DNA of 64,000 nucleotides. Origin: Hysterangium stoloniferum (taxonomy: Eukaryota; Basidiomycota; Agaricomycetes; Hysterangiales; Hysterangiaceae). Of the stretch, positions 17,575 through 64,000 are shown in pieces (the first letter of the stretch is position 1; every line of letters starts with the position of its first letter). Below the pieces are notes generated by a model. The model did not search any database. It saw only the letters and a program-made list of their open reading frames with translations, and was not told the origin of the DNA. Position numbers and translations under genes: made by a program. The DNA lies in contig WHVD01000073.1 of assembly GCA_015178975.1 (NCBI GenBank), positions 186,001 to 250,000 on the forward strand, in the 5' to 3' direction.

Positions 17575-20500
17575 ATGTCTGCTCGACGCACGTCGTCAAC
17601 GACATCTCTATCGAAATATGCTAAAGGGCAAACCAATGCGGAAGATCTTGTTGACCGATCTTTAGACTTTTGCAATGCTTTCTGGGGAGTTGCCGATGGT
17701 GGGTATGAAGTATTACTTACCCGCTTACGAGGTGCGGCGAGGACCACTGAGGAACTTCGTTTGTTCTGGAAAGAAAGGTACGTATTATGCGAGACGAGAT
17801 ATGGTGTGGTTTATTGTCCTCTGACCTCAATCATCAGGGCTGCAATAGAAGATGACTACGCAAAGCGGCTCGCAAAGTTGTCCAAACAACCATTCGGTAG
17901 AGACGAATTAGGGTAATACAATTCATGTCTTTTATCTTGTTCTCACCTCTGTTGGCTAGCGAGCTTCGAAGCGCTATCGATACCCTACGCGGGGAGACTG
18001 ATCGACAGGCGGCCTCCCATGCCAAACTTGCTCAAATCATGCGATCAGAATTGGAACAGCCTGTTGTCGAACGTATAAACAAGCAGGCGCAGTTCAAAAG
18101 ATTAGTATGTGCATAACATCTCCCGCACAACACGCTTGTTAAATCTCTATCTAGTCTCAAGCTAGCATCGAGAAATCGTTTCGGGCAAAGCAAATGCAAG
18201 AGCAATATGTGAGGAAGGCACGGCAAAAATATGAGGATGATTGCATCAGGATCAATTCGTATACAGCACAATCTACTCTCGTTCAAGGGAGAGAACTCGA
18301 AAAGATCCAATTGAGACTTGAGAAAGCTAGACAGACTGTCCAGGCGAATGAGCGTGAGTTCAGCCAGTTTGCCAGGGCCCTTGCCGACACCACAAGTCGT
18401 TGGGAAAAGGAGTGGAAAGTATTCTGTGATGCATGTCAAGATATAGAGGAAGACAGAATTGAATTCATGAAGGATAACATGTGGGGCTATGCGAATGCGG
18501 TTTCTACCGTTTGCGTGACTGACGATGAGGTACGTACAGGATGACCGGTATATTTACAACATCTGACGCCATGCACAGGCCTGCGAAATGATCAGAGTTG
18601 CCTTGGAGCAAGTGGAAGCAGAAAAGGATGTTGAAAACTTTGTACGGGATTACAATACGGGACCTCAGATCCCCGATCCTCCTGCGTTCGTCGACTATAA
18701 CTCGTCAGCGGGTCAACAGCAACAGCGACTGACATGGCGTACCGCCAATTTTGCTCGATCGTCACACCGGGCCGTAGGCATACCTATATTGCCACCGGCT
18801 ACAACGGATGATGAGGTTCCTTCGCCTGGTAATGCTGGCATAGGTGCTGGGGGTGGCCGCTCCGATGCTCGACCAACTAGCCGTCCAAACTCAGTAGTTG
18901 CTATTAGAGGAGGGCCTTCTGGGTTGAATGGTGAATCATCCAGCGATGTGCCATCACCTGGTCGTCCTGTACAACAAGCGCTTCCCCCAACCGCTGGCAG
19001 CAAACCAGCCACTAGTCATTATGGGCCTCTTAGACAACCATCATCAAAGGTGGTCTCGAATGCTGCTCCGCGTCAAGCATTGGCCAAGGCTGCACCACAG
19101 CCAGTCGTTGGTTTAAACTCATCTCCATCAATCCGCCCACCCAGACCGCAGGATCCTACGGCAGAACCTATCGATCCTAGAGCAAAGACAATGCTCAAGG
19201 TCGGTGTCAATGCATACCCCGTGAATCCAAGCGAAGACCCACAGGCTAATGGTAATTCCCACGAATCCGTCAACCCAAACGTCGGGGCACAGGACGACCC
19301 TCTTGCAAGACAGGTCGCGGCGCTAAGAGATGCTTCGAACGGAGGTGTCCGCAGAGGCCCATCTGTCAATGCTCCTGTCCGAGGTGGGATAGTTGATTCT
19401 TTCCAGAACACGAAAGTAGCTGCAGTTGCAGCACCTGCATCAAGCTCCAATGGGCTGCCGGCTCGCTCCCCATCGCCAAACCCACCCACGGCTGCCTATA
19501 TGATACCCCCATCTAATAGATCTGTGTCACCGCTTCCTGCCGAAAATGTCATTGAACAGTATCAACAGCATTTCCCTGGAGAAAGAAGGTCGCTGAGCAT
19601 TAGTCGCCAGAATAGTATAAATCGAGGTCACGAGCCACAGGGACTCAATGCGTCGATATCGGCTGTACGTCCGGTCAGCCCCTCAAGGGATGGCCATGCT
19701 GGAATTGGGGCTCATGGTGGTAGTCGTAGCCCAAGTCCCCAGCCAATTTCAAGAGCTGCGAGTCCTGCTATCCCACACCAGCCGCACCAACAACGTCGAC
19801 TGAGTCACAATTCAGCTGCACCTCCACAAGGAATGAACCGCGCGGCGAGTCCACTTGGTATTGAAATAGATTCCAGTGGACGCGTCGCACATGATGAGCT
19901 CGCACAGCGCATGTATGGTCAAAATCCACCACAGCAAAGAACAAGTTATTACAGTGGTCAAGGTCCTGTTCCTGGTGCTCCTTCACAAACCCCTTACGAT
20001 TATGTTGCTGGACCGACGCAGGGAAATCACTATGTGCCTGCCTCCCAACAACGGCAATATCCACAACAGATACCCCAACAGCAGCAGGCTGTTGCACCTG
20101 CAAATCCACAAGCTACCGGCCCGTATTACCAGCCTCAACGGCAAAATACAACGTCGTCATTATATAACCCGCATCCACCAGCACAACCCCAACCTGGCCG
20201 ACAACCCTTCAACTCTGCGCATACGGGCAACATACCATATTCCGCACCACCTCCTGCTCCTCCTGCGCAACAGCCCCCTCCAGGAAATCCTGTTTATACC
20301 TATCCCGACCAAGACCGCACACAAGGCAACCCGCCCTACTCTGGTTATTCGTCACAAGGATCAATCTCCTCTAAAGGGAATCAGCCAGATGATCGATTGA
20401 ATATGTACGGACGACAGCAAGGCTATCAGTCGCCTAATACGGCCAGCGTGAACAGTGGGGCTAGCATCAACCAATCGCCGTCCCCAGCTCCTCAAGCCCC

Positions 20501-20774
20501 TACAGGCCAGTATACTGAATCCGGCGAACCTGTGTTATTCTACGGTAAGTATAATACAGGGTTATCCATTGACTTGATTTTGACAGTTCTTTCAGTTAAA
20601 GCACTGTATGATTATCGTGCCACCATTGATGAAGAGTTCGATTTCCAGACAGATGATATCATCGCCGTAACCGCCACGCCTGAAGATGGCTGGTGGAATG
20701 GCGAATTACTTGATGAAATGAGGAGGGTTCCTGGGAAGACTACCTTCCCGAGTAATTTCGTATCTCTGTTCTAA
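17575..20774 (+). CDS. F-BAR and SH3 domain protein, Cdc15/Imp2 type
   Basis: Membrane-curving scaffold of the cytokinetic ring and endocytic sites (PCH family: Cdc15/Imp2 in fission yeast, Hof1 in budding yeast). Six exons close to 980 aa: 17575-17777, 17838-17912, 17960-18104, 18155-18529, 18579-20544 and 20596-20774. The F-BAR domain occupies residues 1 to about 290; its start FCNAFWGVADGGYEVLLTRL and later coiled helices are clear. A roughly 600-residue disordered region rich in Pro, Gln and Ser with many SP motifs follows, as expected for a phosphoregulated linker. The C-terminal SH3 domain begins VKALYDYRATIDEEFDF and ends FPSNFVSLF. I chose the ATG at 17575, which begins MSARRTSS. Identification is secure at the family level. 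Confidence 0.93.
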
Positions 20775-39727: not shown

Positions 39728-41450
39728 CTAATCTTCGGGAATGGAGAGACGTTCGATGCATAACCGGGCGACAACTTCGCCATCGATGGGAATTGAAGTC
39801 CCTTGGAACTCAGGCGGGACATGTACTGCTGGTAAATCAGGAGATGTGAAATATCTATAACGAATGTCAAATAAAGACTGCTTTGAGTCCAGGAATAGCA
39901 TACTCGTTTCCCCAAAATCCATAGTGCTTCATCCCGAGGATCCGCGTGACCATTTCGTAATCGTAAGCAAAGCCGGACGGGTAATAAAATTCCATGACTG
40001 TTGCTCTCTTGGAGAGATTCATCCATAATAATGCGGTTAATCCATTGCCATGCACACCCATTAGGATCTGATATTTGCTCAGCAACACTCATCCAATATC
40101 CCCCCCCCCCCCAACACTTACAGTAGTGCGCGCAGCCAAAAGAATCTGTTCCTTACGAGAAAGCTGTTCCATACTCACAACGTGCACCTCATAGCCATAG
40201 TCCCTTTCTAGTCGTTCTAAAGCTTTAACCAAGCCATCGTGATCCTCCTGTTTCAACATCCTTCGCCCCCAAGCTTGTCGAGACACATATGTAATGACGT
40301 TGCCGCTTTTAGCGAGAGGATCCCCACCTAAGGATTTAATAAGATTGTTTCGAACGGTCTTCCACCAATATGGACTGCCGTTCAGTTTAAAGAGCTCGGC
40401 AAAGCCTTTTTGAGTCGCAGCAGCTGTTGGATTGTGCGTAGCAGCTGCACGATCGCTAAGAACGGCACGCTCCAGAAGAAAAGGGTGACCCAACAGGGCC
40501 CGGTCAGCCCAGTCGTCAGCGTACTCTATAGAGGCCGAGGGCCATACACCTCTTGTGACAAACTGGTTCATTCCAGCATGGTCACGGAACTGTTCATTGT
40601 GTACATGTGACATCATGAAACGTCTAGGTGGTTCAAGAAAAGTGCTCCCGTCTGGTTGAATGTCTGGGTCGAGAAGACTGTATGCCCGCCATAACCCTAG
40701 GAAGGTTTCCGCGGCCCAGTGGTAATAGTGGGCAATGCTATGACCTGTTAGAGTGAATCAGAATATAGAAGTATATAGACTCACAACTGTGGTGCCTCTG
40801 TGACAACAAACTAAAGCATAATTGGTTAAGACTCAAACGATTCAAACGATGCTCACTGAGGTACCACCCAACCAAAGTGCACTGGAACCAAAAATCTCTT
40901 TAGCCTTTTGCGAGGTAATTATTTGTAGGTCAGCATCTGTAGGATCGATTGCCAAAATCTCCTCAGGTTTGTTTGAGAGAGGAGCACCGGATGAAGTCAA
41001 TAGCATTCTATCTGGAATTGTTTTGGGTTCGTCTGTGACGATGAATATTGTTCCATTACAGAGATAGAGTCGTTCAAACACGGTCCAGCCTGGTCGGACG
41101 GTCAGGGGTGCAGTAGTTCAGAGCAACAGATACTAAGACACACCTCCCACATGGATCTTTATTTCCGTGGTTGGAATATCCCCGTCCGCCCAGATGACTG
41201 CGTTCTCGCCGTGGTCTGGGGGTAAATGCACTGGCATCGAATTGTGCTGGGTAGGCCCTACAAATCCAGGACCGTTCTCATTGTGATCGGGACTCTTTGG
41301 GCCTCCCCAAGGTTTTAAAACCTTGTTGCTCCAGTGGTATTCGTCGTGCTCAGTGTCTGAAGTGCCAAGCGCGAATTGGAAGAAAAGAATGAAGGATACA
41401 ACGACTACGAGTACGAAGACTAGCTCTCGTCGAGTTGGTAGTGAGCGCAT
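39728..41450 (-). CDS. family 61 glycosyltransferase (DUF563)
   Basis: Type II membrane glycosyltransferase of the EOGT/xylosyltransferase-like GT61 family, expected in the ER or Golgi lumen. Exons 41450-41144, 41089-40857, 40797-40788 (10 nt), 40744-40122, 40067-39904 and 39854-39728 close to 487 aa. One transmembrane helix lies at residues 10-28 (ELVFVLVVVVSFILFFQFAL) after a short basic N-terminus. The catalytic region has AHYYHWAAETFLGLWRAY and VITYVSRQ, and the family hallmark GVHGNGLTALLWM. A 13-15 base C run lies in the intron at about 40101-40112. The acceptor and donor sugars cannot be read from the sequence. The 10-nt exon is supported by phase and by AG/GT borders but deserves transcript evidence. 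Confidence 0.9.
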
Positions 41451-42223
41451 CCTATGGCAGAGGATAAATCACCTATTGCCGTTGTCGGGAAGGAGCACGT
41501 TGCTTGTCATCCTTCCTTCAAGGTGACAGATACATTTCGCGAGCACAGACCCCAAACTTTGGCTACCAGAGGTCCATCATGTCAGCTTGTGTCAGGATTC
41601 CCTGAAGCTTTCATATACCCCTGAATTTCTTTATAGGAAAGTCACATGAATATATACCAACAATTGCACCTGAATTTTCCCACCAGAAGAAATGTCCGTC
41701 CTATTCTTCTCGTCCGCCTCTAATTTTATTAGTGTACCTCTGCTCTTGATTGAATTGTAACAAGTGAGTCTAATATGACCTGACACTTTAACAACATACA
41801 ATATTCAAGGCAAGAATCCGATGCAGACGATCATCGCTATACTTATTTGACACGAGTCGTCCGACAGTGACGGAATGTTTGGCTTATCATCTCATGGACA
41901 TATTTTACTTATGTACCATACTGTGCTCCATAGCCACTGCGACAGCTCCTTGAATATAAACCCCATCCCACAGAATATTTATGTCGTCTGTGCCAAATTT
42001 GAACTCGACGGGAGCTACCTAGCTTTTCATTGTCTTGTCCTTTGACACACTTGAGAGACATTACGAAGTCATAGCCAAAAAGACGTCATTATGATTATGA
42101 TATATTGAGACGCTACAATTGGGTATCCTGTGAAGTGATGGCGTACATATAAGCAAGATATTTAGTTCGAAGGCAGTGGAATATGAGAGTAATTGTTCAG
42201 GAGTAATGCGTGGAATATAACAT
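41451..42223. other. intergenic interval
   Basis: Promoter of the GT61 gene and 3' region of the C2H2 gene. AT-rich, no gene seen. Confidence 0.6.
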
Positions 42224-43123
42224 TTATCGACGGGACGAAGAGTAGTATGTGTTGGGGGGAGTAGATCTATCGGATGACTCGCGCGATGTGGAGGGATAAC
42301 CGTAGTGACGCCCGCCTGCATCAGATCCTTGTCTTGCATGTACGTTGTTGAAGTGCCGTGTCATATTAGACTTGATAGTAAAGGATTTGTTACAATCTAT
42401 TTGAGGGCAAGCATACACTAATAACATCATTGAGATTAGAGGCGGACGGGAGAAAAAAGGCACGTACATCGCTCCTTAGTGTGGACAGTAGCATGGGCCT
42501 TTAACGAGAAGCATCATTAGCACCTATTGTCTGTGTGGCTAGAAGAATTTGCCTACCTCTAAACCTGACTGACGATCGAAACGTTTGGAACACTCAGAAC
42601 ACTGGAATCTTTTTCTAGGATCACCATTGTCATCCTGATACCTGGATGTTGCGACAATCCCAGGGGGCCTTGTCGACATAGGCAAAACAGGCTCTAGGGT
42701 GGCACCCGCCAGACGAAAAGCTCCGAAAGCATGGTTATTGTCGTTAGAAGGGAACCTGGCACTTGATCTAGTGGCATCGGAGGCCGCAGTACGCCCAGCG
42801 CGATAAGTCGACTCGTTATATTCATGCAAGTGCTGATGGCTCGTCAGCAAAGGTAAAACGAAGAATAATGAGACTAACTTCATGAGATGGTGCGTGCGTA
42901 GTGCGGGGTGTCTCGGAGTAAGTGCGTGAAGACGATGTTCGAGGGTTATATGCATGGTGAGATTGGTCTACTCGATTGGTAAATTAGTCTATTACAGATT
43001 ATCGGAGACAATGAACTCACTGTGACTCCCCGTATAGGGAACATATTCATCTTCTCGCCTGGTTGGTGTACCTTCGCTTCTACGGAAAGTACTATGACTC
43101 GTATATGGGTTGGAATAAGACAT
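42224..43123 (-). CDS. two-finger C2H2 zinc-finger protein (family member B)
   Basis: Exons 43123-43021, 42967-42879, 42832-42557, 42498-42468 and 42417-42224 close to 230 aa. The N-terminal half is Ser/Thr/Arg/Tyr-rich. It contains the segment NDNNHAFGAFRLAG and then SRYQDDNGDPRKRF, also found in the array at 57-62 kb. Fingers: FQCSECSKRFDRQSGLEAHATVH, then ACPQIDCNKSFTIKSNM-RHFNNVH; the second has a C-x4-C spacing. The tail ends NTYYSSSRR, as in the gene at 30 kb. Both intron positions inside the fingers match that gene. This gene, or a close copy, is the likely source of the zinc-finger half of the kinase chimeras to the right. Confidence 0.88.
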
Positions 43124-46484: not shown

Positions 46485-48704
46485 ATGGCCATTCCTAAAT
46501 TGAAATTGCCTTTGAACGGTTTGACGTGTATCTTCCTCTCCTGTCTTTTCCATGTAAACTCGGCGTTGCCAATTATTCCACTTCATGATACAACATTAAC
46601 AGGTACCCCCACTGCGTCGGCGTCACAGTCGGGTGGCAATCCGAAATTTGTATTCGCCCACCACATCATTGGCAATACGTTCAACTTTACCCCATCTATA
46701 TGGCTCAATGATATCACAATGGCTCATGCAGCCGGCATAGATGGATTTGCTCTCAACGTCGGTAACCAGCCTTGGGAGCCCAGTCAGGTCAGGTCGGCCT
46801 ACGACGCTGCTCAGGCAAGCGGGAAACTTTTCAAAATGTTCCTAAGCCTCGATATGACGTAGGCTGCTGTTTTTAAAATTGGTGGGATATGTGTCGCTAA
46901 TTTAGCTGTTTGCACACGACAGCTCCTTACCCTGCGCTTCTCCCTCCGATGCACAGAAGCTGGTCGCTCTAGTTAATTCTCAAAACTCTCATCCGTCCCA
47001 GTTTCGTTACGGCTCTGGAAATAAAACATTCGTTTCTACTTTTTCAGGTAGGACATATCTATAGGCATAAACTGAGCTTATTAATGTTTACAACTCGATC
47101 CTTTTGTCCTTTTAGGCGAGGCGTGTACATTCTCTTCTCCGTCTCCTTCCCGAGGATGGGCTCAACATTTTGTCGAGCCTCTTGGTCCAGATATCCATTT
47201 TGTTCCCGCCTTTTTCGTGGATGTTTCTCAGCTTTCAGCCGGCAATGCAGAAGGCGACGGAGGATTTGGAGGAATCATCTCCGGCGACTTCAACGTGAGA
47301 GATTATTAGTCGTGATCTGTGCACCTTCCGACATTTTCGTTGCAACAGTGGAATTCAGGATGGCCCACACAAGTGACAACTGCCGCCCTTAGACAATCGG
47401 CCACCGATCCCGCCACATTGGCTTCGTTGCTTAATCTTAATGCGTCTTCAGTAGTACAAATGCCCTCAGGGCCTGGCTTGTCGGGGATTTTGAAGCGTAG
47501 TTTATTGTCATTATCTGGACTTTCCGTCGCATTCAAATCGCCGGGTGGTATCTCTGACAGTGCTCGTTCTGTACTAGCCGCAGTCTCCGGGGCATTTACT
47601 AGTGATGAGCTGCATCTGAAAGCTATAAAGGGCAGAAGTCAAAATAAAAACCAAAAGTCGTTCAAGGTACTAAATTCTATCTATCAAGCCCCCACTAGCC
47701 CTAAAACTTACATGGCAGCGGGTATGGTTCATTACCTGAGGGGGATGCCAACCGCTAATCACTATACTACAGTGTCCCCCTGGTTTTTCACACACTATTC
47801 ACCCCAGACGTTCAATAAAAATGTTAGCCGTTTGATACAATTAATTATTGACCTCTCACCCTTACCATTTCTCTCGGATCCCACAAGTTTTTATTTCTCT
47901 CGGACAATCATTTATATTCAAGAAGATGGGAAACGTTGGTGGACTCCCGTGACGCCGTCGATCTTGTTGAAATCGTAACCTGGAATGGTGAGTGCATCTT
48001 TTGCTGTTGTCTGTGCATCGCCTCACATGTGGTTGAGACTATGGCGAGTCCCATTATGTGGGACCCATCGAAGGTACACAACCCAACTCCCAGGCGTGGG
48101 TAGATGGCAATGACCATACTGGTATATAATAGAATGCCTTGATGCCATGCTTGGAATAATATGTTCAATTTAGGATGGCTAGACCTGACAGCGTACTATG
48201 CACACGCATTCAAAACCGGGGTATACCCCACAGTCACTCGAGACAAAATCGTCATGTGGGCACGACCTCATGCTCGCGACGCAGAAGCGTCGGGGGATGA
48301 TGTTGCGAGACCGACGAATTTTCAATTGGTATGTTTCGATTGATTCACCTTGATGACTTTCCTTTAGACTAATATTACCATTTTTTTTTTTCAAGACGGA
48401 GGATTCTCTATGGGCAACAGTGCTGGTTCCCGCACCCTCCACTGTCGTACTCAGCGTTGCGCCACAATCTAGCAATGCCTCGCCGATTTCCCTCTCGTCG
48501 GGAGTCAACTCAACTACTTCCAAGGTCTTCGATGTTCCTGCTGGTGCCTCACACCTAAAAATTCCGCTGATTGTAAATGGGGGTATGCGAGCAGCTGTCT
48601 TTCGCAACAATGAACTAGTGCTTGATTTTTCCCCCGGGGGGTTCACATTTGACTCCAGTCCGAAGACGTTCAATTTCAATGCATTTGCTGCAGCATCGCC
48701 GTGA
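46485..48704 (+). CDS. secreted GH71 alpha-1,3-glucanase
   Basis: Glycoside hydrolase family 71 (mutanase type), cleaving alpha-1,3-glucan of fungal walls. Nine exons close to 582 aa: 46485-46858, 46923-47047, 47116-47294, 47349-47721, 47773-47822, 47888-47987, 48038-48121, 48174-48328 and 48396-48704. An N-terminal signal peptide is evident (about residues 8-27, hydrophobic core LTCIFLSCLFHVNSA). Family motifs: KFVFAHHIIGNTFNFT, FALNVGNQPWE, and VTWNDYGESHYVGPI near residue 400. The C-terminal domain begins after PTNFQLTED and is a beta-rich Ser/Thr-rich module. Role: wall remodelling or attack on other fungi. Convergent with the reductase gene at 48956. Confidence 0.92.
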
Positions 48705-50443: not shown

Positions 50444-50543
50444 TCTCTGTCGTTTGTTCGTGACTCTGGGCAAGCGAATAGAGTTCTATTGCGTCGCCAC
50501 CGCTCTTTTGCGTGACCAGAAAAAATCGGGCCGTGCTCAAGCC
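50444..50543 (-). repeat. split direct repeat Y, terminal copy
   Basis: 100-bp copy matching 50834-50933 at about 98 percent; forms the 3' terminus of the element. Confidence 0.9.
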
Positions 50544-50602
50544 GGCGGAAGCGAAAATACATGAAGTCTACCGAATATAAACTAGGGTAAGCGGAAGGGT
50601 GG

Positions 50603-50834
50603 GTAAAAGTTTTGAGCGGAACTCGAAGTCTTTGAAGACGATCGAGTGCGGAATTGAGACGGGACGAGATGGAGAGGTATGTACTATGGAATGCAGTATA
50701 TATGGCCTAAGGACAATAGGAGAGAACAAAGAGGAAAATAGAGTGGGGAGAACAAAGAAATAATGCGCAGCATTGTTTGCTAATGTCACGTGCCTCCTTC
50801 AGAGAAAATGGACAAACTAATTTGTCCAAACCAT
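50603..50834 (-). repeat. split direct repeat X, 3'-side copy
   Basis: 232-bp copy matching 54911-55142 almost perfectly. It is embedded between the two Y copies at the 3' end of the element. Confidence 0.92.
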
Positions 50835-50933
50835 CTCTGTCGTTTGTTCGTGACTCTGGGCAAGCGAATAGAGTTCTATTGCGTCGCCACCGCTCTTTTG
50901 CTTGACCAGAAAAGATCGGGCCGTGCTCAAGCC
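50834..50933 (-). repeat. split direct repeat Y, internal copy
   Basis: 100-bp copy directly after the recombinase frame, abutting the 3'-side X copy. Confidence 0.9.
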
Positions 50934-53900
50934 AAAGACTTAAGCGAGACGAAGGTCCAGCGGGCCGGGAGGTTGAGTGTTAGGAACGGCCCAATGAAGC
51001 CTGGCAGAGGAGGACTCGATGTAAAGTTTGTAGGCGTCGCTGCGCCAACGCCCCAACAATTGGATTTCATAGTCGGTGAACCCTGCTTCAGCAGCGGAGG
51101 AAGCCGCACCTCTACGAAAGGAGTGACCTGCAAAGGAGGCAGAATTGAAACCGGCAGTTTGGAGGAGGGATTTGAGAGAAGACACGAAGAGTGAATACTG
51201 GAGGGGGGACCCATCGCTGTTGCAAAACAGCGGTGAATTGGGAGAGCGTGGATCCACAGTGAAGAGGTATTTGAGGGCCTGCACCGCACAAGTGGTGGCG
51301 GCTACTGCCGCAACGTAAGTGGTGACGCCTTTCCGAAAGGGGTCAGTTTTAGAGGCAGGAAAAGTGATAGTAATATGAGAGGGCTCCTCGAAATTAGGAA
51401 AGAATGAAATGGCATCCCTGGTCAAGTGAGCCGAAGGATCGAAGGCCTGAAATTTGTTCCCTTTGATGGTAAATTCCCCGCAGCGTAAAAATCCTGCGAA
51501 TGCTAGCTTAATGGCTGCGTCGATTGTAGCAGCGAAAAGTGATGAGTGTGGGAAAGAGAAAGTAATGAGGTGTCGAAGAATAGGAAGGGTTATTGGTGCC
51601 ATGGGATGGCGGGCACGCTCACCAAAGTAGCGCTTGATGCCTCTGATGACCCTTTGGATGAGGGGAGCTTCGACGGCCTCGAAAGTGAGATCTGCGTCGA
51701 TGTGGAGTGACTTGACATGTCCAAGATATGCCTTGATTGTCGATGCTTTGAGCTGTCTTGTGAGCCCGAGATGAGCAACCCATTCGACGATGGCGTTCTT
51801 GCTGACGGGGAGGAAAGAACGGTCCTGGTTGAGGAGATGGGGTCGGAGGGTGATGAAGTCGATGAAGGACCGTTGCCCTGTGCTATATGTTTTCCGAGTG
51901 CTGTTGGCGAGGCCATACCAGAGGAAAAAGGCGACTGGTGGGGAGAGGTGAGCATTCGTCTGATACCAACGAGCAGGGGTTGTTCGAGCAATTCTGTTTA
52001 TGCAAGGAAGGTTTAAGAGTAAATAAGCGTGCATATTGAAAACGAGAGGCAGAGTCAGCAAGGGCATTCATATGAGAAGAAAGCCAAGAGGAAGAAAAAG
52101 AGAATCTTAGAAACGATGCTAGCATGACAATATTGCGGACAATGGACATTGTGAAACGGGCGCGGGTGGTTTCTTTTGTAAGTGAAGCGACAATAGCGGA
52201 ATTGTCGACGTGAAAAATAATATGGTGGCCAGACCAAAGAGTACCCCAGCGGGTAATAGCTTGCAGAACGGCGTATATCTCCTTGAATTGGATGTCCCGA
52301 TCTCGAAAGCGGCGGGGTATTCGAGAGGCAAACCACTGGTTACCGAAAATGCCACCAATACCTTTGCGACCACTAGCATCAGTAAATACGTGCAGTGTTG
52401 GGATTGAGGGCTGGATGATAGTGATGCCATTCCAGGCGTGAGAGAAAGCGTGCCACCACCGAATATCTGCACGGGCATAGGCAGGCATGTGGCGGTGGGA
52501 GAATGGGGAAGGGAAGGTCATGGAGAAGTCAATAAGACGTCGGATAAATGCCCGAGCATGGGGGATTACTTGCGTAGAAAAATGTAGGAAACCAACCAAT
52601 TCTTGAATTTGCTTTAATGTAAAAGTATGGGCAGCAAGTGCTGCATTGAGGATGCTGCGGAGATACGTGAGTTTGTCGATTGGTAAGCGAGCTTCCATGG
52701 CGATGGTATCAATTTCGAGGCCAAGATATTCTAATTTTGTGCATGGCCGAATGGTTTTTTCGTGTTGAAAGGAGAGGCCAAGCTGGTGTCCAAGGGCTTG
52801 GCACCAGTCAATGGCAGCATGAGCAGTGTGCAGTGAAGTGCTTGGAGGAAAGATTGGCAAGAAATCATCCAAATAGTGGCAAAGAGCAGCTGGAATGTGG
52901 CGCACAATGATCCAGTGTAATGCTTCAGCGACGAGGTTGAAGATATAAGGCGCGGAACGCAGCCCGAAAACGAGTACTATTGCATAATAGAATTTAGATG
53001 CCCAATGGAAACCAAGGAGGCGCCATTGTGATGGAGCTACGGGGATATGATGGAAAGCTTCCTTAAGGTCGAGTTTGGCTAGCAGGATGCCAGGGCCAAA
53101 TGTCCGAATCGCTTGGAGGGCAGCCATGAAGGGTTCATAAATGATGGAGGCTTCTGAATCAGGAATCCCGTCATTGACAGATGATGACGTTGGCCAAGAT
53201 AAATGGTTGATAAGTCGTCGTTTGGAGCTTCGTTTACGTGTAGCGAGGCCTAGAGGAGAGCAGCGAAAATTTGGCAGCGGAGGGGTGGGGAACGGGACCA
53301 CAGCGTGTGAATGTGATAGGAGCTTATTAATAGTGGAAGATACTTCCTCCGGATGCTCAAATGCGGATGCTAAGTTTTTACAATGTTGCTCATGATCATT
53401 GCCAGTGAAGCCAATGACGGCCCCATGTTTTATTATGTGCAGTAATGACATGACAAAGGTGCGATCAGGGTAGTCCCGAAGATGGAACTCCCAGGCATCT
53501 AAATTCAGCGGGGATGAAACAATGGGAAGAGTGTGGGGGGAGATGGGTGGAATGTTGCAACGGGGGTCAGTATTAGGGCGGAGAGGAGGAAGGGGACCGG
53601 GGGAAAAAAGATCAGGGAAGGGGAGAGGAGGCAGAGACGAGTGAGCTATGGACCAAGTGACCGGAGATAAGCCTTTGGGGCTACAGTGGGGAGACGGCGA
53701 GGGTAATCTCCTCACCAAGCCATGACCCTAAGCGGATTTCTTTGTGGGACAAGAAATAGCCCCATGTTCGGTGCTATCGCACAGCCTGCATTTGTGGATG
53801 CGGTAGCACTTCTCTCGTGAACATTTCCGGTAGTTGAAGTCTAGGCAATGCGTGTGTTTTTGGAAGACTCACTTCCGGTATGAGTTGCTGCAGATTTTGC

Positions 53901-54910
53901 AGGGCGGACACGGGGGTGGCCGACAAGATATTGCCCTTGGAGATAAGAGTCGAGATCGCCCCAATGGGAGAAATCGCCCCGAGCCATTTCGGCCAGACGT
54001 TTGGAATGAAATGCGAAGTGATAGTTCAGGAGAGCCATCCAATCATATTCCAAATACCACGAGCAAAGCAGTGACAGATAACTGGAAGTGCTGAGGATAA
54101 AATTTGTAACGGCGGGGGATGGAGGGCCTGAAAGCACATGGGCGTGGAGTATGCCGAAATAACGGGAAAGAGGGTAGTAAAACGATTCGAAATTAGGAAA
54201 ATCCTTTGTGGACGATCGTTCAGCCTGCACGTAAACGCCATCCCGAAATTCGTAGGTAGGTTTTTGTGGTTTAGAATGAATGCGCACATCCAACTTTGTA
54301 AGTTGGATGGGCCGAAAGGAGTGCCGAATGATTGCCAGCAGCATCGTTTCCTCGATTTCGGGGAAAAGGGAAGTCAAGGAAGAGGACGCACCGGAGCCCA
54401 AAGTCCCAGGGGGAGGCAGGAACCCTGTGGCGGCCGAAGGCGGAGGTATGGGTTGGAAAGCGAAAGGAGCCTGCGGGGGCACCACGAGGGTGGGATGAAG
54501 TGTTGGAGGATAATGGCCAGGATAGGGCAGGGGGGCATGAGGCGGTGGCCCAGCGGTTGAGTGCTGCTGCTGCTGCTCTTGCTGCCGCTGGAGGGCTGCG
54601 ACGCTGGCGGCTAAGTTGTGAATAAAGGCCAGAAGCTGCGAGTTGGAAAATGGGGGTAATGCCGCTGAAGGCGCTGGCTGCTGGTCGGTTGATGGAGGTA
54701 ATGTAGCAATTGGCGATAGCGGCGGGGCTGGCATCTCGTCGGGAGCAGGCGCAATGCCCGTAGAATGGTGTGGATCAGAGCCTGAGGGAAGATTATTAGA
54801 CATCGTCGATCGTGTCTAGGGAATAAGAAAAACGGAAATCAGAGCCAGCGAATGGGTCGGACTTCGCAATGCGTGTGACGAAGATCGTCTGTGAGGTGTG
54901 CGAGTAGTAT

Positions 54911-55142
54911 GTAAAAGTTTTGAGCGGAACTCGAAGTCTTTGAAGACGATCGAGTGCGGAATTGAGACGGGACGAGATGGAGAGGTATGTACTATGGAAT
55001 GCAGTATATATGGCCTAAGGACAATAGGAGAGAACAAAGAGGAAAATAGAGTGGGGAGAACAAAGAAATAATGCGTAGCATTGTTTGCTAATGTCACGTG
55101 CCTCCTTCAGAGAAAATGGACAAACTAATTTGTCCAAACCAT
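54911..55142 (-). repeat. split direct repeat X, 5'-side copy
   Basis: 232-bp copy at the 5' terminus of the element, same orientation as 50603-50834. Its right edge marks the element boundary. Confidence 0.92.
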
Positions 55143-55496: not shown

Positions 55497-55734
55497 TCGT
55501 GTTTGGATTTTTTTATCTTCATCCACAGGAAATTTAAAGCTAACATCGTAAGATGTACGTATATAGTGAGCTTAGTGTATTATTTTGTGTTGTATGATTA
55601 GCGAGCAGGTGGCTATGTTTAGTTGGGTGTGAGAATCACATACCTAGTCGAGGTACACAGCATATACGCTGGTTGTCTATCTTCCTCTCTAGTCACAGTT
55701 GGCTCCTTCTCCCTCTAATACAACCTATTCGGGC

Positions 55735-57532
55735 ATGTCCAACTACAGGACAGACTCCTATCGTCCCATCAATATCCGCAAAGTAGCCAAGACTCACTTT
55801 GACGAAATACAGGCCTATTTGAGTGAACATGGAAACGGTACGCCTAATCTACTTGCCATGCAGCTTGTCCATTTACGTGTTTGCCGCTGACTATTACCTC
55901 TAGAACCTTTGAACTCGAGGGCAAGTATACGGGAGAAACTCACACGTTTCACAATGCAGCAATTCTCATGGCTGTCAACTGATGTCTACGATGAGCTTAT
56001 GCGCCGAAACAATAACGAGACTGGAAACGAAGGCGAGTTTTCTTGGGGAGTGATGCCTTGAGGCCAACACGTATTTACTATTTTCGTCTTAGTTCCATTT
56101 CTTCCCATACAGCTGGATTTCTCTTTTAAACGAAATAAAGTGAGACGGCAACTCGCAACCTTAACTTGGTTCAAAGATCTTGCTGGAGATGTGTACTTTG
56201 AGCTTAATAGAAGATTTCCGGAGTTCAAAGAACCTGAGGTTCGCTTCTGTTCCATATATCCGCTGAGAACGTGCTTCTTAATTCCATTGTAGCCTATTGG
56301 CACGCCTCCACCTCTTCCATCCCTATACGATGACTCGTGTAGCCCCGAGTACTATGACACTCGCACTTCACAGCCCAGTGAAGAGAACTCTCCCCTTGAT
56401 GTTGCCCCATCACTTCAGGAATCATTTTCAAGAACATCGCCTCTCTGCCTCGATGGTCTTATAACACAACGTAGCAAGTATGTCCAGGCATGCGGGGGTT
56501 ATTCGGACATATGGACCGGTGAATTAGATGGCAAAAAAATTGCCATCAAGTCAATGAGAGGATTCAACAGTATGGGTTTGAGGATTGTGAAGGAAAAATT
56601 ATTCAAGGTCTAAAGCCTCAGATTCTTCACATAGACTACTTGGACTTATTTTTGTGTCACCGTCTAGCGAGCATGGCGAGAATACCTCGTTTGGTCATCC
56701 ATGAGCCATCCTAATATACTCCAATGTCTTGGTTATTTGTATGATTTCGGTCCAGAATCTCAGCATGAGCTACCAGCTTTAATATCCCCGTGGATGTCCA
56801 ATGGCACCGTGATGTCCTACATCAAATGTTGGCCAGCTGTAGATCGACTCCCTTTGGTGTGTGTTAGCAGGTGTGCATAGCTGGACGCTTGATTTTTACA
56901 CAGCCGCCTTTGTAGATTTTTGGCATCGCTGATGGACTTGCATTTTTACACGACCATAATCCTTCGATCATCCATGGTGATGTCCGTGGGGTATGTATTA
57001 TTATGTAAAACAGAGTCTGAGTTTTATCCTGACCTTTCAATTTCCTTGATTTTGTCTGACAGGGAAATATCCTGGTTTCAGACCAGGGAATTCCCTGCTT
57101 AAGTGATTTTGGGCTCTCTAGGATCCTGGGAGATTCAGTAGGACTTACTACATCATCAGATGTGGGCGGATCGTTGCGCTGGATGTCTCCAGAGCTATTC
57201 CAGGACAAAAAAATCGATGAGCAAAGCGATGTCTGGGCATTCGGAATGACGGTAATTGTATGCATATCAAAACTTGAGTCTGCCTTGAGACAAATTCAAA
57301 AGTTTCACAGGAGATCCTTACTCAGCGGCGGCCATATGCAGAGATCTTGCTCTATCCTGCAGCAATGTATAAAATCATAAAAGGAGAGATACCACAACGT
57401 CCTGACAGAACTACTGCACCTGGTTTAACAGAGAAGCTGTGGTCGGTCTGCAGACAATGCTGGGACTCAAACCCTAAGAAGCGACCTGCAATGCGGGATA
57501 TTAGAAGGCTACACGAGCTATCAGAATGTTGA
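55735..57532 (+). CDS. SHD (Spa2/GIT)-protein kinase, array unit 1
   Basis: Exons 55735-55837, 55904-56032, 56093-56238, 56293-56607, 56668-56856, 56916-56990, 57063-57257 and 57311-57532 close to 457 aa. Two Spa2-homology repeats: REKLTRFTMQQFSWLSTDVY and RRQLATL-WFKDLAGDVYFEL. The kinase domain follows: Gly loop GGYSDIWTGEL, Lys in KIAIKSM, HPNIL, catalytic loop IIHGDVRG (Gly in place of Arg of HRD), DFGL, MSPELF, DVWAFGMTV and a TKL-like C-lobe. Compared with unit 2 the first ATG and about 20 N-terminal codons are lost, so an internal Met serves as start. The reading frame stops right after the kinase (RRLHELSEC). The second intron begins with GC (GAAG then GCGAGT). SHD repeats bind MAPK-cascade and polarity proteins in Spa2; a polarity-signalling role is inference. 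Confidence 0.8.
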
Positions 57533-58648
57533 TCCTGGAAAGAAAGCTTTCGGAGCTTTTCATCAGAGAGACTCTCCTTTAAAGCTTATTTTGCACGAGT
57601 ATAACGAGTCAAGTTATCCCGCTGGGCGTATCGCGGCCTTTGATGCCGCTAGATCAAGTTCTAACGACAATAATCATGCTTTCGGAGCTTTTCGTCTGGT
57701 GGGCGATATCTTAGAGCCTGTTTTGCCTATGCTGACAAAGCCACCTGGATTTGTCCCGTCATCCAGATATCAGGATGACAATGGTGATCCACCTTCGTCT
57801 TGCTGCATGGACATCGACAAATCCGATCCAGAGGGAAACCTGCTGGCCTCGGACCATGATCTGTCAGCTTCGGTGATCGCTGATCACGGATTGAAGCCTC
57901 CCTCTCCTGACAGGCGTACCGCCTAACCGTATACTACCCGCCATTGGTTCTCGGATTTCGATGCACGCGTAGAACGGCACAAATTCATTATCTTATCACT
58001 CCCTTTGGTTCTTAGGCCTAGTAGTAGACTCCTAAACAGTAACCCTGGAAGGGCGAAACGGTAGGGGTAGCGGTATCCCCCTGATGAGAGCTTTCGTCGG
58101 CTTGAAACCGTTACAGTCCGTTTCCCCTAGCCACCTTCTACCTTTGCTGACAAAGTTCGATCTTCGGAGACAACTGATTGCGGTGAGTGATAAGGTGGTG
58201 GTCTGCCCAGCGGCGCTCTGGTGGACGCGGGTGACCTTGCGTTGCCATGGTCACCTGGCTAATCCTAGAAAAAAATTTCATTGTTCTGTGTGTTTCAAAC
58301 GTTTCGTTCGTCAGTCAGCTTTAGAGGTAGGCATATTCTTCCAGCCACGCGGACAAAAGGTGCTAATGATGCTTCTCGTTGAAGGTCCATGCTGCTGTCC
58401 ACATTGGGGAGGGATGTACGTGCCTTTTTTTCTCCGGTCCGCCTCTAATCTTAATGATTTTATTAGTGCATGCCTGCCCTCAACCGGATTGTAGCAAGTC
58501 CTTTTATGTCAAATCTAATATGATCCGGCACTTCAACAACGCACATTCAAGGCAAGAATCTGATGCAGACAGGCGTCACTACCATTATTCGTCCGTGTCG
58601 AGTGGGTCTGCTCCCCCTGGAACATACTCTTCTTCGTTCTGTCGATAA
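57533..58648 (+). pseudogene. detached zinc-finger half of array unit 1
   Basis: Continuation of the chimera seen intact in unit 2, but out of frame with the kinase after 57532. It keeps ASN/Gly-rich linker text (SSNDNNHAFGAFRLVG, SRYQDDNGDP), then an inserted segment of about 465 bp (57792-58257) and both C2H2 fingers: FHCSVCFKRFVRQSALE and ACPQPDCSKSF-VKSNMIRHFNNAH, with the two family introns preserved. It could still be transcribed, or joined by an intron I cannot see; a transcript would decide. Confidence 0.65.
57792..58257. other. inserted segment inside zinc-finger linker of unit 1
   Basis: The paralogue at 42-43 kb and unit 2 run straight from the SRYQDDN linker into the first finger; unit 1 has about 465 extra bp here, more GC-rich at its left end. 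No terminal repeats are obvious. Origin unknown: a transposon fragment or filler from repair. Confidence 0.6.
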
Positions 58649-58914
58649 ATGTTATATTCCACGTCACAGCATTACTCCTGAACAACCATTCTCATATCCC
58701 ACTGCAATTAGGTTCAGCACAAACCACCCCGCAGAGATTAATCTTCCGTTACACTTTTGGAGAGGCCTAGGCAAACGAGCATAAATATTCTGTGGGGTGG
58801 GGTCTTAAAAAGGGGACTCTCGCAGTAGCTACGCTCAGATTGCTAACAAGTGAGCTGTCACTTGCGACGTGATGCATAAGGGTGGCCAAGTTTAAAAACG
58901 TGGGATGTGTATTC

Positions 58915-59025
58915 ATCGACAGAACGAAGAAACAAATATGTTTTAGGAGATATATCTGTTGGATGACTTGCGCGATGTGGACGAATAGGCATAGCGATGA
59001 TAGTATATGTTGTTAAGGCGCCGGC
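58915..59025 (-). pseudogene. inverted fragment of the C2H2 3' exon, after unit 1
   Basis: Reads, on the minus strand, like the last exon of the C2H2 family (compare 42217-42320: the blocks ATCGAC, ACGAAGA, TGACT-GCGCGATGTGGA in the same order). It lies tail to tail with the direct copy at about 58560-58650, giving an imperfect inverted repeat. Confidence 0.7.
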
Positions 59026-59307
59026 CCAAAGGGTATTTGTAGTAATGTGTATGGGAAAAAAAGTTTGGGAGGTCATGCACACGTATACCTACCTATAAAT
59101 GCTGTTGTTTCTATAGTTATAGTTATTTGATGTTATGTCTGGATTTTTTTATTGTCGATCGTAACATGTACGTATACAGTGAGCTTAGTATATTATTTTG
59201 TGCTTTATGGTCAGCGAGCAGGGGGTTTTGTGTGAGAATCACATACCTAGTCGAGGTACACAGCATATATACCCTACACTGGGTGTCTAGCTTCCTCTCT
59301 ATTCATC

Positions 59308-61896
59308 ATGGCGACAGTTGGCTCACACTTCCAGAGAGCTCCTTCTCCCTTTAATGCAACCTATTCGGGCATGTCCAACTACAGGACAGACTCCTCTCGT
59401 CCCATCGACACCCGCAAAGTAGCCAAGACTCACTTTCACGAAATACAGGCCTATTTGGGAAAACATGGAAACGGTACGTCTAATCTATTTGCCATGCAGC
59501 TTGTCCATTTACCTATTTTCCGCTGACTATCACCTCTAGAACCTTTGAACTCGAGGGCAAGTGTAAGGGAGAAACTCACACGTCTCACAAAGCAGCAATT
59601 ATCAGAACTGTCAACTGATGTCTACGATGAGCTTATGCGCCGAAACAATAACGAGACTGGAAACGAAGGCGAGTTCTCTTGGGGAGTGATGCCTTGAGGC
59701 CAACACGTATTTACTATTTTCGTCTTAGTTCCATTTCTTCCCATAGAGTTAATTTCCTCTTTAAAACGAAATAAAGTAAGAAGGCAACTCGCAACCTTGC
59801 CAAAACCTCGGTTCAAAGATCTTGCTGGAGATGTGTACTTTGAGCTTAATAGAAGATTTCCGGAATTCAAAGAACCTGAGGTTCGCTTCCGTTCCATATA
59901 TGCGCTGAGAACGTGCTTCTTAATTCCATTGTAGCCTACCGGCACGCCTCGGCCTGTTCCATCCTTATACGAAGACTTGTCTAGCCCTGAGTACTATGAC
60001 GCTCGCACCTCACAGCCCAGTGAAGATCACTCTCCCCTTCATGTTAACCCATCACCTCTTCAGGAATCATTTTCAAGAACATCGCCTCTCTGCCTCGATG
60101 GTCTTATAACACAATGTAGCCAATATATCCAGGCATGCGGGGGTTATGCGGACATATGGACCGGTGAATTAGATGGCAGAAAAATTGCCATCAAGTCAAT
60201 GAGAGGATTTAACGGTATGGGTTTGCGGATTGTTAAGGAAAAATTATTCAAGGTCTAAAGCCCCAGATTCATCACACAGACTACTTGAACTTATTTTTGT
60301 GCCACCGTCTAGCGAACATGGCGAGAATACCTCGTCTGGTCATCCATGAGCCATCCTAATATACTCAAATGTTTTGGTTATTCGTATGATTTCGGTCCAG
60401 AATCTCAGCATGAGCTACCAGCTTTGATATCCCCATGGATGTCCAATGGCACCGTGATGTCCTACATCAAATGTTGGCCAGCTGTAGATCGACTCCCTTT
60501 GGTTTGTCTTAATAGAGGTGTGCATAGCTGGACACTTGATTTTTACACAGCCATCTTTGTAGATTTTTGGCATCGCGAATGGACTTGCATTTTTACACGA
60601 CCGTAATCCTTCGATCATCCATGGTGATGTCCGTGCGGTATGTATTACTATGTAAAACAGAATCTGAGTTTTATCCTGACTTTTCAATTCCCTTGATTTT
60701 GTCTGACAGGGAAATATCCTGGTTTCTGATCAGGGAATTCCCTGCTTGACTGATTTTGGGCTGTTTAGGATCCTAGGAGATACAGTAGGACTTACTACAT
60801 CATTAAATGTGGCTGGATCCTTGCGCTGGATGTCTCCAGAGCTATTCCACGGCGAAAAAGTCGATGAGCAAAGCGATGTCTGGGCATTCGGAATGACAGT
60901 AATTGTATGCATATCAAAACTTAACTCTGCCTTTAGACAAATTCAAAAGTTTCACAGGAGATACTTACTCAGCAGTGGCCATATGCAGAGATCTCACCCT
61001 GTCCTGTAGTAATGTTTAAAATCATGAAAGGAGAGTTACCACACCGTCCTGACAGATCTACTGCACCTGGTTTGACAGAGGAGCTGTGGTCGGTCTGCAG
61101 ACAATGCTGGGACTCAAAGCCTAAGAAGCGACCTGCAATGCGGGATATTAGAAGGCTACTCAAGCTGCATCACAATGTTGATCCTGGAAAGAAAGCTTTC
61201 GGAGCTTCTCGTCAGACAGACTCCACCTTAGAGCCTGTTTCGCCTTTACCGGCAAGGCACCCTGGGATTGTCCCGCCGTCCGGATATCAGGATGACAATA
61301 TTGATCCTGGAAAGAAAGCCTTTGGAGCTTCTCGTCAGACAGACTCCATCTTAGAGCTTGTTTTGCCTTTACCCACAAGGCCCCCTTGGATTGTTCCGCC
61401 GTCCAGATATCAGGATGATAATGTTGGTCCTGGAAAGAAAGCTTTCGGAGCTTTTCGTCAAACACACTCCATCTCAGGACTTATTTTGCCTTTATCGGCA
61501 TGGCTCTCTGGGATTGTCCCACCGTCCGGATATCAAGATTACAATTTTGATCCTGGAAGGGAAGCTTTCGGAGCTGTTCGTCAGACAGACCCCACCTTAC
61601 AGCCTATTTTGCCTCCTTCATGGAAATCGCCCCTTAGGATTGACCCGTCGTTCGGATATCAAGATGACAATTCTGATACTAAAAGAAAATTCCAGTGTTC
61701 TGGGTGTCTCGAACATTTCGATCGCAAGTCAGGTTTAAATGTAAGCATATTCGTGCAGCCACACAGACAATAATGCTAATGATGCTTCTTATTGAAGGCC
61801 CATGCTATTGTCCACACTGGACGTGCCGTTTTACTCGCGTCCAGCTCTGATCTCAATGATGTTATTAATGTATACCTGTCCTCAAACAGATTGTAG
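59308..61896 (+). CDS. SHD-kinase-C2H2 chimeric protein, array unit 2
   Basis: Exons 59308-59473, 59540-59668, 59729-59880, 59935-60252, 60313-60501, 60563-60637, 60710-60904, 60958-61740 and 61798-61896 close to 701 aa. Order: short N-terminus; two SHD repeats (REKLTRLTKQQLSELSTDVY, then RRQLATL-KPRFKDLAGDVYF); kinase domain (GGYADIWTGEL, KIAIKSM, HPNILKCFGYSYD, IIHGDVRAGN, DFGL, MSPELF, DVWAFGMTV, CWDSKPKKRPAMRDI); four 41-residue linker repeats (VDPGKKAFGASRQTDS type); first C2H2 finger FQCSGCLEHFDRKSGLN plus AHAIVH. Kinase C-lobe, linker and finger share one exon, so the fusion is direct. A short deletion removed the donor of the next family intron, and translation ends at 61896, so the second finger is lost. 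The HRD Arg is Gly; Lys, Asp, Asn and DFG are present, so activity is plausible. The second intron begins with GC. Confidence 0.82.
61172..61667 (+). repeat. four tandem 123-bp (41-aa) repeats in linker
   Basis: Copies start near 61172, 61295, 61418 and 61541, each in frame, with core DPGKKAFGA-RQT and IVPPS-YQD. The spacing is 123 bp throughout. The C2H2 gene at 42-43 kb and unit 1 have a single related segment, so expansion occurred in unit 2. Confidence 0.88.
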
Positions 61897-62330
61897 CAAG
61901 TCCTTTACTCTCAAGTCTAATATGACCCAGCACTTCAACAACATACATTCAAGGCAAGAATTTGATGCAGATGGGCCTCACTTGTGTGGACCTTTAGTTA
62001 CTTATACAATCATCCTGTTTTTCCTGCTGCCTAGCCATGTATGTACCCTCTTCGTTAGTTCGTTGAGCAATACACCGTGGTCCTATCAACCTGTGGGACC
62101 AGGACCCAGTGAGCCTATTTGAAGACAGGCTTTCATTGTCCACATCACACAAGTCATCCGACAAATCTACTCCCTCTAAAACATACCATTCTTCGTCCTG
62201 TCGATAAATGTTATATTCCACGTCACCGCATTACTCCTGGACAATCATTCTTATATCCCACTGCAGTTAGGCTCAGTAAAAAAAACCACCCACAGTTTAA
62301 ACTTCCGTTACACTTTTAGAGAGGTAAAGA
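61897..62330 (+). pseudogene. remnant of second C2H2 finger, unit 2
   Basis: Past the stop at 61896 the text CPQTDCSKSFTLKSNMTQHFNN is still legible in another frame, followed by about 150 bp not present in unit 1 (61975-62125) and then the normal family 3' end (TGTCGATAAATGTTATATT). It is untranslated in my model. Confidence 0.65.
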
Positions 62331-62513
62331 CGTTTTAAGTATCTCAGCGGTTAAACGTTAGCTGAGAGATTTACTTACTATACTACGCGTATATAATAGT
62401 ACAATCGAGAGGAGATTGAACATTTATGACCCTTATTGCGTCTTCTCGAGACATTCTGTCTCACCTTTTTCATACGAGCGCTTACTTCTACGATACTCGT
62501 TATATCTAATAAG
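62325..62513. other. about 190-bp extra segment in unit 2 3' flank
   Basis: Unit 1 reads directly from the 3' flank (ACACTTTTGGAGAG) into GCCTAGGCAAA; unit 2 has about 190 bp between these, bordered by AGAG on the left and AAGAG on the right. It could be a small insertion with a short target duplication. I find no coding content. Confidence 0.5.
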
Positions 62514-62654
62514 AGGCCTAGGCAAAAGAACATAAATGATCTGTGAGGGGTCTCAAAAAGGGGCTCTGGCAGTAGCTACGCTTACATCGTTAGTCACTTG
62601 CGAAGTGATGCATAAGGGTGGCCAAGTTTAGAAATGTGGCATATACATTTATCG

Positions 62655-62745
62655 ACAGAACGAAGAAACGAAGTATGTTATATATATATGTTGGACGACT
62701 CGCGCGATGTGGACGAATAAGCATAGCGATGATAGTGTGTGTTGT
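62655..62745 (-). pseudogene. inverted fragment of the C2H2 3' exon, after unit 2
   Basis: Same inverted fragment as at 58915-59025, in the same relative place (ATCGACAGAACGAAGAAACG, then GCGCGATGTGGACGAATA). It shows that the fragment was part of the unit before tandem duplication. Confidence 0.7.
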
Positions 62746-62865
62746 TAAGGCACCGGCCCATTATGGTGTTTGAAAAGTAAAGTATATCATATTAAGGGAA
62801 AAAAACGTTTTGGAGGTCATGCACCGTATACCTACCTACCTATAAATGCTGTTGTTTCTATAGTT

Positions 62866-64000
62866 ATTTTGATGTCATGTCTGGATTTTTTATTGTCGAC
62901 CGTAACATGTACGTATACAGTGAGCTTAGTATATTGTTTTGTGCTTTATGGTCAGCGAGCAGTTAGTTGTGAGAGAATCAAATACCTAGTCGAGGTACAC
63001 AGCATATATACCCTGCAGGCACTGGCCGTCTATCTTCCTTCCTCTCTAGTCATCATGACCACAGTTGGCCCACGCTTCCAGAGAACTCCTTCTCCCTCTA
63101 CTGCAACCTATTCGGGCATGGCTAACTACAGGACAGACTCCTATCGTCCCATCGACACCCGCAAAGTAGCCAAGACTCACTTTGACGAAATACAGGCCTA
63201 TTTGGGCGAACATGGAAACGGTAGGTCTAATCTACTTGCCATGCAGCTTGGCCATTTACGTGTTTCCCGCTGACTATCACCTCAAGAACCTTTGAACTCG
63301 AGGGTAAGTATAAGGGAGAAACTCACACGTCTCACAATGCAGCAATTCTCAGGGCTGTCAACTGATATCTACGATGAACTTATGCGCCGAAAAAATAACA
63401 AGACTGGAAACGATTTTTTCGTCCTAGTTCCATTTCTCCCCATACGGCAGGATTTCCATCCTAAACGAAATGAAGCTAGACAGCAACTCGCCACCTTGCT
63501 CAACCCTCGATTCAAGGATCTTGCTACAGATGTGTACTTTGAACTTAATAGAAGATATCCGGAATTCAAAGAACCTGAGGTTCGCTTCCGTTCCATATAT
63601 CCGCTGAGAACGTGCTTCTTGATTCCATTGTAGCCTACTGGCACGCCTCCGCCTGTTCCATCCCTAAACGACGACTCGTCTAGTCCTGAGTACTATGACG
63701 CTCGCACTTCACAGCCCAGTGAAGATAACTCCCCCTGTTATGTTGCCCCATCACCTCTTCAGGAATCATTTTCAAGAACATCCCCTCTCTGCCTCGATGG
63801 TCTTATAACACAGCGTAGCAAGTATGTCGAGGCACGCGGGGGTTATGCGGACATATGGACCGGTGAATTAGATGGCAAAAAAATTGCCATCAAGTCAATG
63901 AGAATATTTAACAGTATGGGTTTGCGGATTGTGAAGGAAAAATTATTCAAGGTATAAAGCCTCAGATTCTTCACACAGACTACTTGAACTTATTTTGTGC
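62866..64000 (+). repeat. tandem array unit 3, cut by window edge
   Basis: Third direct unit, beginning with the same promoter segment and reaching the N-lobe of the kinase at the window end. More units may follow. Confidence 0.85.
63055..63951 (+). CDS. SHD-kinase, array unit 3, partial
   Basis: Exons 63055-63220, 63287-63579 and 63634-63951 close in frame; further exons lie beyond the window. It starts MTTVGPRFQRTPSPS. SHD repeats: REKLTRLTMQQFSGLSTDIY and RQQLATLLNPRFKDLATDVY, the best-kept of the three units. The GC-started intron of units 1 and 2 is absent: a short residue of it is translated in frame (NDFFVLVPFLP). The kinase N-lobe has GGYADIWTGEL and KIAIKSM and ends at the conserved splice donor after KEKLFK. 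Nothing visible is broken. Confidence 0.85.

Follow-up and report, generated by a model that had tools for sequence, protein, structure and literature searches.

A tandem array of SHD-kinase genes

We analyzed a 64-kb window of contig WHVD01000073.1 from Hysterangium stoloniferum, to which all positions below refer. A direct-repeat search found three direct copies of one unit on the plus strand between 55.5 and 64.0 kb, and in hand-built gene models (Table 1) each unit codes for a Spa2-homology domain (SHD), followed in units 1 and 2 by a kinase domain. The start-to-start spacing is 3636-3645 nt between units 1 and 2 (gene part) and 3699-3747 nt between units 2 and 3, in agreement with a first-pass annotation of this DNA, which had described three direct units with a period of about 3.6-3.7 kb. 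Unit 3 runs into the window edge (64000) early in the kinase, and the array comprises at least three units.

None of the three models contains an internal stop. The 17 modelled introns are 54-72 nt long; 15 are GT-AG, and two, the copies of the SHD-internal intron carried by units 1 and 2, are GC-AG. In unit 3 this intron (intron 2) has been deleted in frame (63381-63450), giving an open reading frame at 63274-63633 and a few extra residues between the two SHD repeats. Unit 3, without the intron yet still in frame, gives independent support to the exon join modelled within the SHD. Past the start region, two gaps, of 6 and 3 nt, separate the coding sequences of units 1 and 2.

The N-terminal SHD similarity that had been proposed was recovered by profile search. 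Pfam GIT_SHD (PF08518, cut-off 21.1 bits) matched two stretches in all three units, with 62.0 bits in unit 1, 70.9 bits in unit 2 and the top score, 82.1 bits, in unit 3. Residues 38-152 of unit 3 matched the SHD structure of Neurospora SPA-2 (6LAG) with an E value of 2.4e-22, and its N-terminal part matched the GIT2 structure 6JMT (E 5.1e-7). In 6LAG both direct repeats are described as building one domain that bears a groove (PMC7275032), and for this reason we count the two SHD repeats of each unit as one SHD. A single-sequence AlphaFold2 model of the unit 3 SHD exon alone was poor (mean predicted local distance difference test score, pLDDT, 44.7) and was set aside.

The Pfam family PK_Tyr_Ser-Thr matched the kinase of unit 1 (E 2.2e-34) and that of unit 2 at a similar level (Table 1), while unit 3, whose sequence ends early in the kinase at the window edge, gave no Pfam kinase match. 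Among solved structures RIPK3 was the best match, followed by LCK and CTR1, and by these comparisons the kinase is classed as TKL/TK-like. Its HGD and DFG motifs align with the HRD and DFG of solved kinases, and inspection of units 1 and 2 showed the Lys of AIK, the Glu of WREY, the Asn of GNIL, SPE, SDVW and the late Arg in both. An SHD and a kinase in one predicted polypeptide are supported by these data. The first-pass annotation had given every unit two SHD repeats and a kinase; the SHD stands in three of three units and the kinase in units 1 and 2, with the correction that the repeats make up one SHD and that the unit 3 kinase is cut.

The kinase is joined in frame to a C2H2 finger in unit 2 and not in unit 1

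Downstream of the kinase the two units visible that far differ, and one of them continues in frame from kinase to finger. The unit 1 kinase ends with a stop codon at 57532. The tail that follows holds one partial repeat and part of a C2H2 third exon, in a frame other than that of the kinase owing to a 2-nt indel relative to unit 2, and is then split by a 468-bp insertion, which elsewhere in the window has only short matches (16-22 nt, E 4.5). Beyond the insertion the splice sites are kept and two fingers score 37.1 bits, above the Pfam C2H2 cut-off of 25.2 bits. An ATG at 58084 is in frame with these fingers, so a separate finger gene is possible. Splicing from the unit 1 kinase to the unit 1 fingers was considered and, on inspection, rejected, since the intron would have to span about 700 nt, compared with the 54-72 nt of the modelled introns.

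In unit 2 the exon at 60958-61740 links the kinase in one frame to four 41-residue repeats and on to a C2H2 finger, just as had been drawn, and the model 59308-61896 is retained. This finger, at 17.3 bits, is under the Pfam cut-off, although its four zinc ligands are present; the domain search thus placed the SHD and the kinase above their cut-offs and left the unit 2 finger below. Of the intron ahead of the second finger, the donor is deleted and the acceptor changed, with about 145 bp of extra sequence after it. The TAG at 61894-61896 is reached by read-through at a place where unit 1 and a free C2H2 gene (see below) have an intron. Because the splice sites of the second finger are lost, the unit 2 protein would end at this TAG with one finger. 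The proposed in-frame closure holds in that no internal stop intervenes, with the qualification that the terminal TAG lies past a lost intron site.

It is unlikely that the unit 2 finger binds DNA by itself. DNA binding had been put forward as a trait of the family; it is not supported as one, with the tail out of frame in unit 1 and half destroyed in unit 2. On present evidence the finger part would be a passenger, and the C2H2 fusion of unit 2 is young and possibly non-functional.

The tails are related to a stand-alone C2H2 gene

When the array was compared with the whole window by tblastn and blastn, the tails matched a minus-strand locus at 42-43 kb. This locus holds a stand-alone two-finger C2H2 gene (43123-42224). 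The main pieces of the unit 1 and unit 2 tails are 79-83% identical to it in DNA, introns and 3' flank included, and the three earlier repeats of unit 2 are 74-81% identical. The match starts at 42829 for unit 1, 3 nt into the third exon (42832), and at 42730 for unit 2; nothing in the tails corresponds to exons 1 and 2 of the free gene or to its promoter region. A second stand-alone gene (30926-30005) shares 40% identity with the first over 95 residues. In both genes the first finger is split by an intron at the same place and a second intron falls right after the finger.

By these alignments the tails are 5'-truncated relatives of a separate C2H2 gene some 14-19 kb away. The gene at 43123-42224 is the closest relative found and the probable source of the tails. 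The free form would be the ancestral one, because there are two complete genes with shared introns. Behind the free gene, and likewise behind each of units 1 and 2, lie inverted remnants of C2H2 sequence (Table 1).

Table 1. Features of the SHD-kinase array and of the related C2H2 sequences in the window.
Feature	Position	Strand	Remarks
Unit 1 SHD-kinase gene	55735..57532	+	8 exons, closes at TGA
Unit 1 exons	55735-55837, 55904-56032, 56093-56238, 56293-56607, 56668-56856, 56916-56990, 57063-57251, 57311-57532	+	
Unit 1 SHD, both repeats	55904..56238	+	one GC-AG intron within; GIT_SHD 62.0 bits
Unit 1 tail, first piece	57525..57790	+	one partial repeat and C2H2 third-exon part; off kinase frame
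Insertion splitting C2H2 exon, unit 1	57791..58258	+	468 bp
Unit 1 tail, second piece	58259..58648	+	two C2H2 fingers, splice sites kept; 37.1 bits
Inverted remnant, C2H2 3' end, downstream of unit 1	58899..58997	-	
Unit 2 gene	59308..61896	+	9 exons; GIT_SHD 6.3e-20, PK_Tyr_Ser-Thr 1.3e-33
Unit 2 exons	59308-59473, 59540-59668, 59729-59880, 59935-60252, 60313-60501, 60563-60637, 60710-60898, 60958-61740, 61798-61896	+	
Unit 2 repeats, four, in frame	61172..61671	+	123 nt (41 residues); TRF; related to third exon of free C2H2 gene
Unit 2 finger 1	61690..61815	+	split by intron 61741-61797; 17.3 bits
Unit 2 finger 2, remains	61868..61982	+	by alignment
Inverted remnant, C2H2 3' end, downstream of unit 2	62636..62729	-	
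Unit 3 gene, partial	63055..64000	+	exons 63055-63220, 63287-63579, 63634-63951
Stand-alone two-finger C2H2 gene	42224..43123	-	5 exons, own start; 41.5 bits
Exons of this gene	43123-43021, 42967-42879, 42832-42557, 42498-42468, 42417-42224	-	
Second stand-alone two-finger C2H2 gene	30926-30005	-	distant paralogue; 45.3 bits
Inverted remnant, C2H2 finger-2 region, downstream of free gene	41692-41859	+	

Divergence and selection

Units 1 and 2 differ at 131/1784 positions of the gene body (7.3%), at 20/178 of the 5' flank (11.2%), at 55/307 of the finger block (17.9%), at 15/114 of the 3' untranslated region (UTR; 13.2%) and at 60/373 of the downstream DNA (16.1%). The finger block is more diverged than the gene body (Fisher p 5e-8) and shows no difference from downstream DNA (Fisher p 0.54). 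Across the array the gene bodies are 7-10% diverged, which fits the first-pass description of a young tandem family. For the SHD-kinase part, the ratio of nonsynonymous to synonymous divergence (dN/dS) was 0.59 between units 1 and 2 (bootstrap 0.39-0.92) and 0.47 between units 1 and 3 (0.27-0.83). When the unit 1-2 changes were simulated neutrally about four stops were expected; none was seen (P 0.0108-0.0135). Codons of the first finger gave dN/dS of 2.1-2.9 in three comparisons and those of the second finger 0.37-0.54, all with ranges that include 1. In the 3' UTR units 1 and 2 are closer to each other (13.2%) than to the free gene (22.2% and 18.5%).

Alternative readings of the array

We consider it likely that the array is a set of tandem SHD-kinases with polarity docking in cis, one of which, unit 2, carries a young and possibly non-functional C2H2 fusion. 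Because the reading frame of unit 2 continues into the decaying remains of a nearby C2H2 gene, the three-part protein probably arose by chance when DNA was copied locally. A number of observations weigh against this reading, and we set them out here together with the alternatives. Unit 1 is without the start codon common to units 2 and 3, its next in-frame ATG being 55735. Between units 2 and 3 the SHD-kinase dN/dS is 0.65 with a bootstrap range of 0.41-1.09, and the stop test on unit 3 alone is weak (P 0.06-0.16). The introns of units 1 and 2 differ at 28/430 positions (6.5%), which is less than dS (0.12) and less than downstream DNA (p 2e-5), and dN (0.07) is not below intron divergence. Since the introns are less diverged than dS, gene conversion may be keeping the bodies alike. 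The missing start codon and the similarity of intron divergence to dN would suit an array that is decaying as a whole, its members being pseudogenes held alike by such conversion. However, the three SHD-kinase bodies contain no stops and no frameshifts, the unit 1-2 coding gaps past the start region are 6 and 3 nt, and the intron loss in unit 3 preserves the frame; we regard general decay as unlikely.

The remaining points concern the tail. Of the three frames, that of the kinase alone is open through the repeats of unit 2 (0 stops, compared with 3 and 11), and the pooled dN/dS of these repeats is 0.68 (0.48-0.91; the pairs are non-independent). Among pairs of repeats, unit 1 and the free gene, the dN/dS range lies below 1 in 3/15: free gene-unit 1 (0.24, 0.09-0.68), repeat 2-free gene (0.35) and repeat 4-free gene (0.39). 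Every constrained pair includes the free gene, so the constraint may be the free gene's own. The open kinase frame and the repeat dN/dS are the strongest sign of present or past translation of the tail. Together with the in-frame run of unit 2 into a finger with four zinc ligands, they speak for a diversifying SHD-kinase-C2H2 family whose members would each relay a polarity signal to DNA within a single polypeptide, as first proposed. Against it, unit 1 is unfused and unit 3 is out of sight that far, the second finger of unit 2 is broken and its first is under the cut-off, the finger block has diverged to the same extent as downstream DNA, and the tail is accounted for by a stand-alone C2H2 relative. 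We find such a family very doubtful: of polarity, phosphorylation and DNA binding in one chain, the SHD-kinase part is supported by sequence and DNA binding by design is not. It seems improbable to us that unit 2 represents a translated SHD-kinase-C2H2 protein of recent birth, its polarity-docked kinase having picked up an expanded repeat tail and the finger of a gene nearby. If true, the birth of a fusion has been caught, with donor, unfused sister and fused copy within one 20-kb stretch.

The finger blocks of units 1 and 2 are 17.9% apart, compared with 12.9% and 16.0% to the free gene. Since they are no closer to each other than to the free gene, separate copying or conversion of the tails is possible. 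It is also conceivable, if somewhat doubtful, that each unit consists of two genes copied together, an SHD-kinase and a small C2H2 gene, and that the unit 2 run arose by chance loss of the kinase stop, for which the chance of matching frame is one in three. The layout of unit 1 agrees with this: its stop at 57532 precedes the in-frame ATG at 58084, and the two fingers are kept together with their two introns. Yet exons 1 and 2 of the free gene, like its promoter region, are missing from the C2H2 copies, and unit 2 has no stop from the kinase to the finger.

Neighbouring elements and database searches

A young retroelement of the tyrosine-recombinase class occupies 50501-55142 on the minus strand and ends about 400 bp ahead of unit 1. 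Its split direct repeats are A, 55142-54911 and 50834-50603 (231/232 identical), and B, 50933-50891 and 50543-50501; we take them to resemble those of Ngaro-type elements. The first open reading frame had no Pfam match and is gag by position only, the reverse transcriptase has YLDD and 42.4 bits, and the recombinase has HSFR and 26.1 bits, just below the Pfam cut-off of 27.1. Elsewhere in the window we found the start of a glycosyl hydrolase family 71 gene (46485-46859, plus strand), a weak glycosyltransferase 61 match below cut-off (40092-40757, minus strand) and an SH3 protein gene (18567-20771, plus strand).

No related loci were found in the collections viral_contigs and genome_contigs, which are without fungal genomes and whose silence is therefore uninformative. 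A tblastn search of plasmids gave 199 records; identity stayed under 60% throughout and query coverage nowhere reached 80%. In the best 20 of the 199 the match starts at query residue 179 or later, on the kinase side. We took these for ordinary bacterial-type kinases that tell nothing about the array. An NCBIfam search with the unit 3 part returned no family.

Proposed origin and function

We propose that a copy of a C2H2 segment, reaching from the third exon to the 3' flank, came to lie behind an SHD-kinase gene, that the composite was then duplicated in tandem, and that the tail subsequently decayed. In unit 2 the junction is in frame, and a 123-nt segment has grown to four copies, so this unit can yield a fused product that includes a single weak finger. 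The probable source of a gene fusion, an unfused copy and a fused copy stand side by side.

The SHD groove of Spa2/SPA-2 and GIT is described as binding partner proteins by an amphipathic helix at sites of polarized growth, and Spa2 as recruiting MAP (mitogen-activated protein) kinase kinases in trans (PMC7275032, PMC12831199). The SHD of the array may similarly bind the amphipathic helix of a partner at such sites and would thereby address its kinase in cis. The reverse role, in which the SHD binds substrates and presents them to the kinase, is equally compatible with the data. The Spa2-binding motif (PMC12831199) is absent from the three unit proteins as far as the window extends, and with no exact copy of this short motif self-docking is without support. 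LPSLY and VPSLY in the linkers of units 1 and 2 match the motif loosely and were judged to be chance. An SHD-kinase would unite in a single chain the work that Spa2 performs in trans with Ste7 and Mkk1, and would thereby offer a simple test of whether docking by the SHD alone suffices to bring a kinase to the hyphal tip.

Comparison with known systems

Among the papers listed in a literature search of titles and abstract openings, with supplements and subscription papers outside its scope, none described an SHD-kinase fusion. The main text of PMC2838846, on fungal kinases and their associated domains, mentions none of Spa2, GIT, C2H2 and zinc finger. Of the stand-alone C2H2 genes in the window, that at 43123-42224 has the pre-finger segment, fingers, finger introns and 3' flank in common with the tails, and the distant paralogue at 30926-30005 has the same finger introns. 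Unlike the tails, both genes begin with a start and N-terminal exons of their own, and neither has a kinase.

The scaffolds Spa2/SPA-2 and GIT1/GIT2 (6LAG, 6JMT) share with the units an SHD with both repeats; they differ in that in the array a kinase domain comes after the SHD, and for units 1 and 2 Pfam showed no further scaffold domain. Alongside the SHD, these scaffolds are described as having a FAT-like C-terminal domain (PMC7275032), for which units 1 and 2 gave no Pfam match at E values up to 1. For the TKL kinases of Agaricomycetes and the fungi-specific FslK lineage, recent species-specific expansions are reported (PMC3937382), and the array likewise combines a TKL/TK-like type with recent local duplication. 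In that report 16 of 241 FslK kinases have an extra domain and most have none, whereas the kinases of the array carry an SHD.

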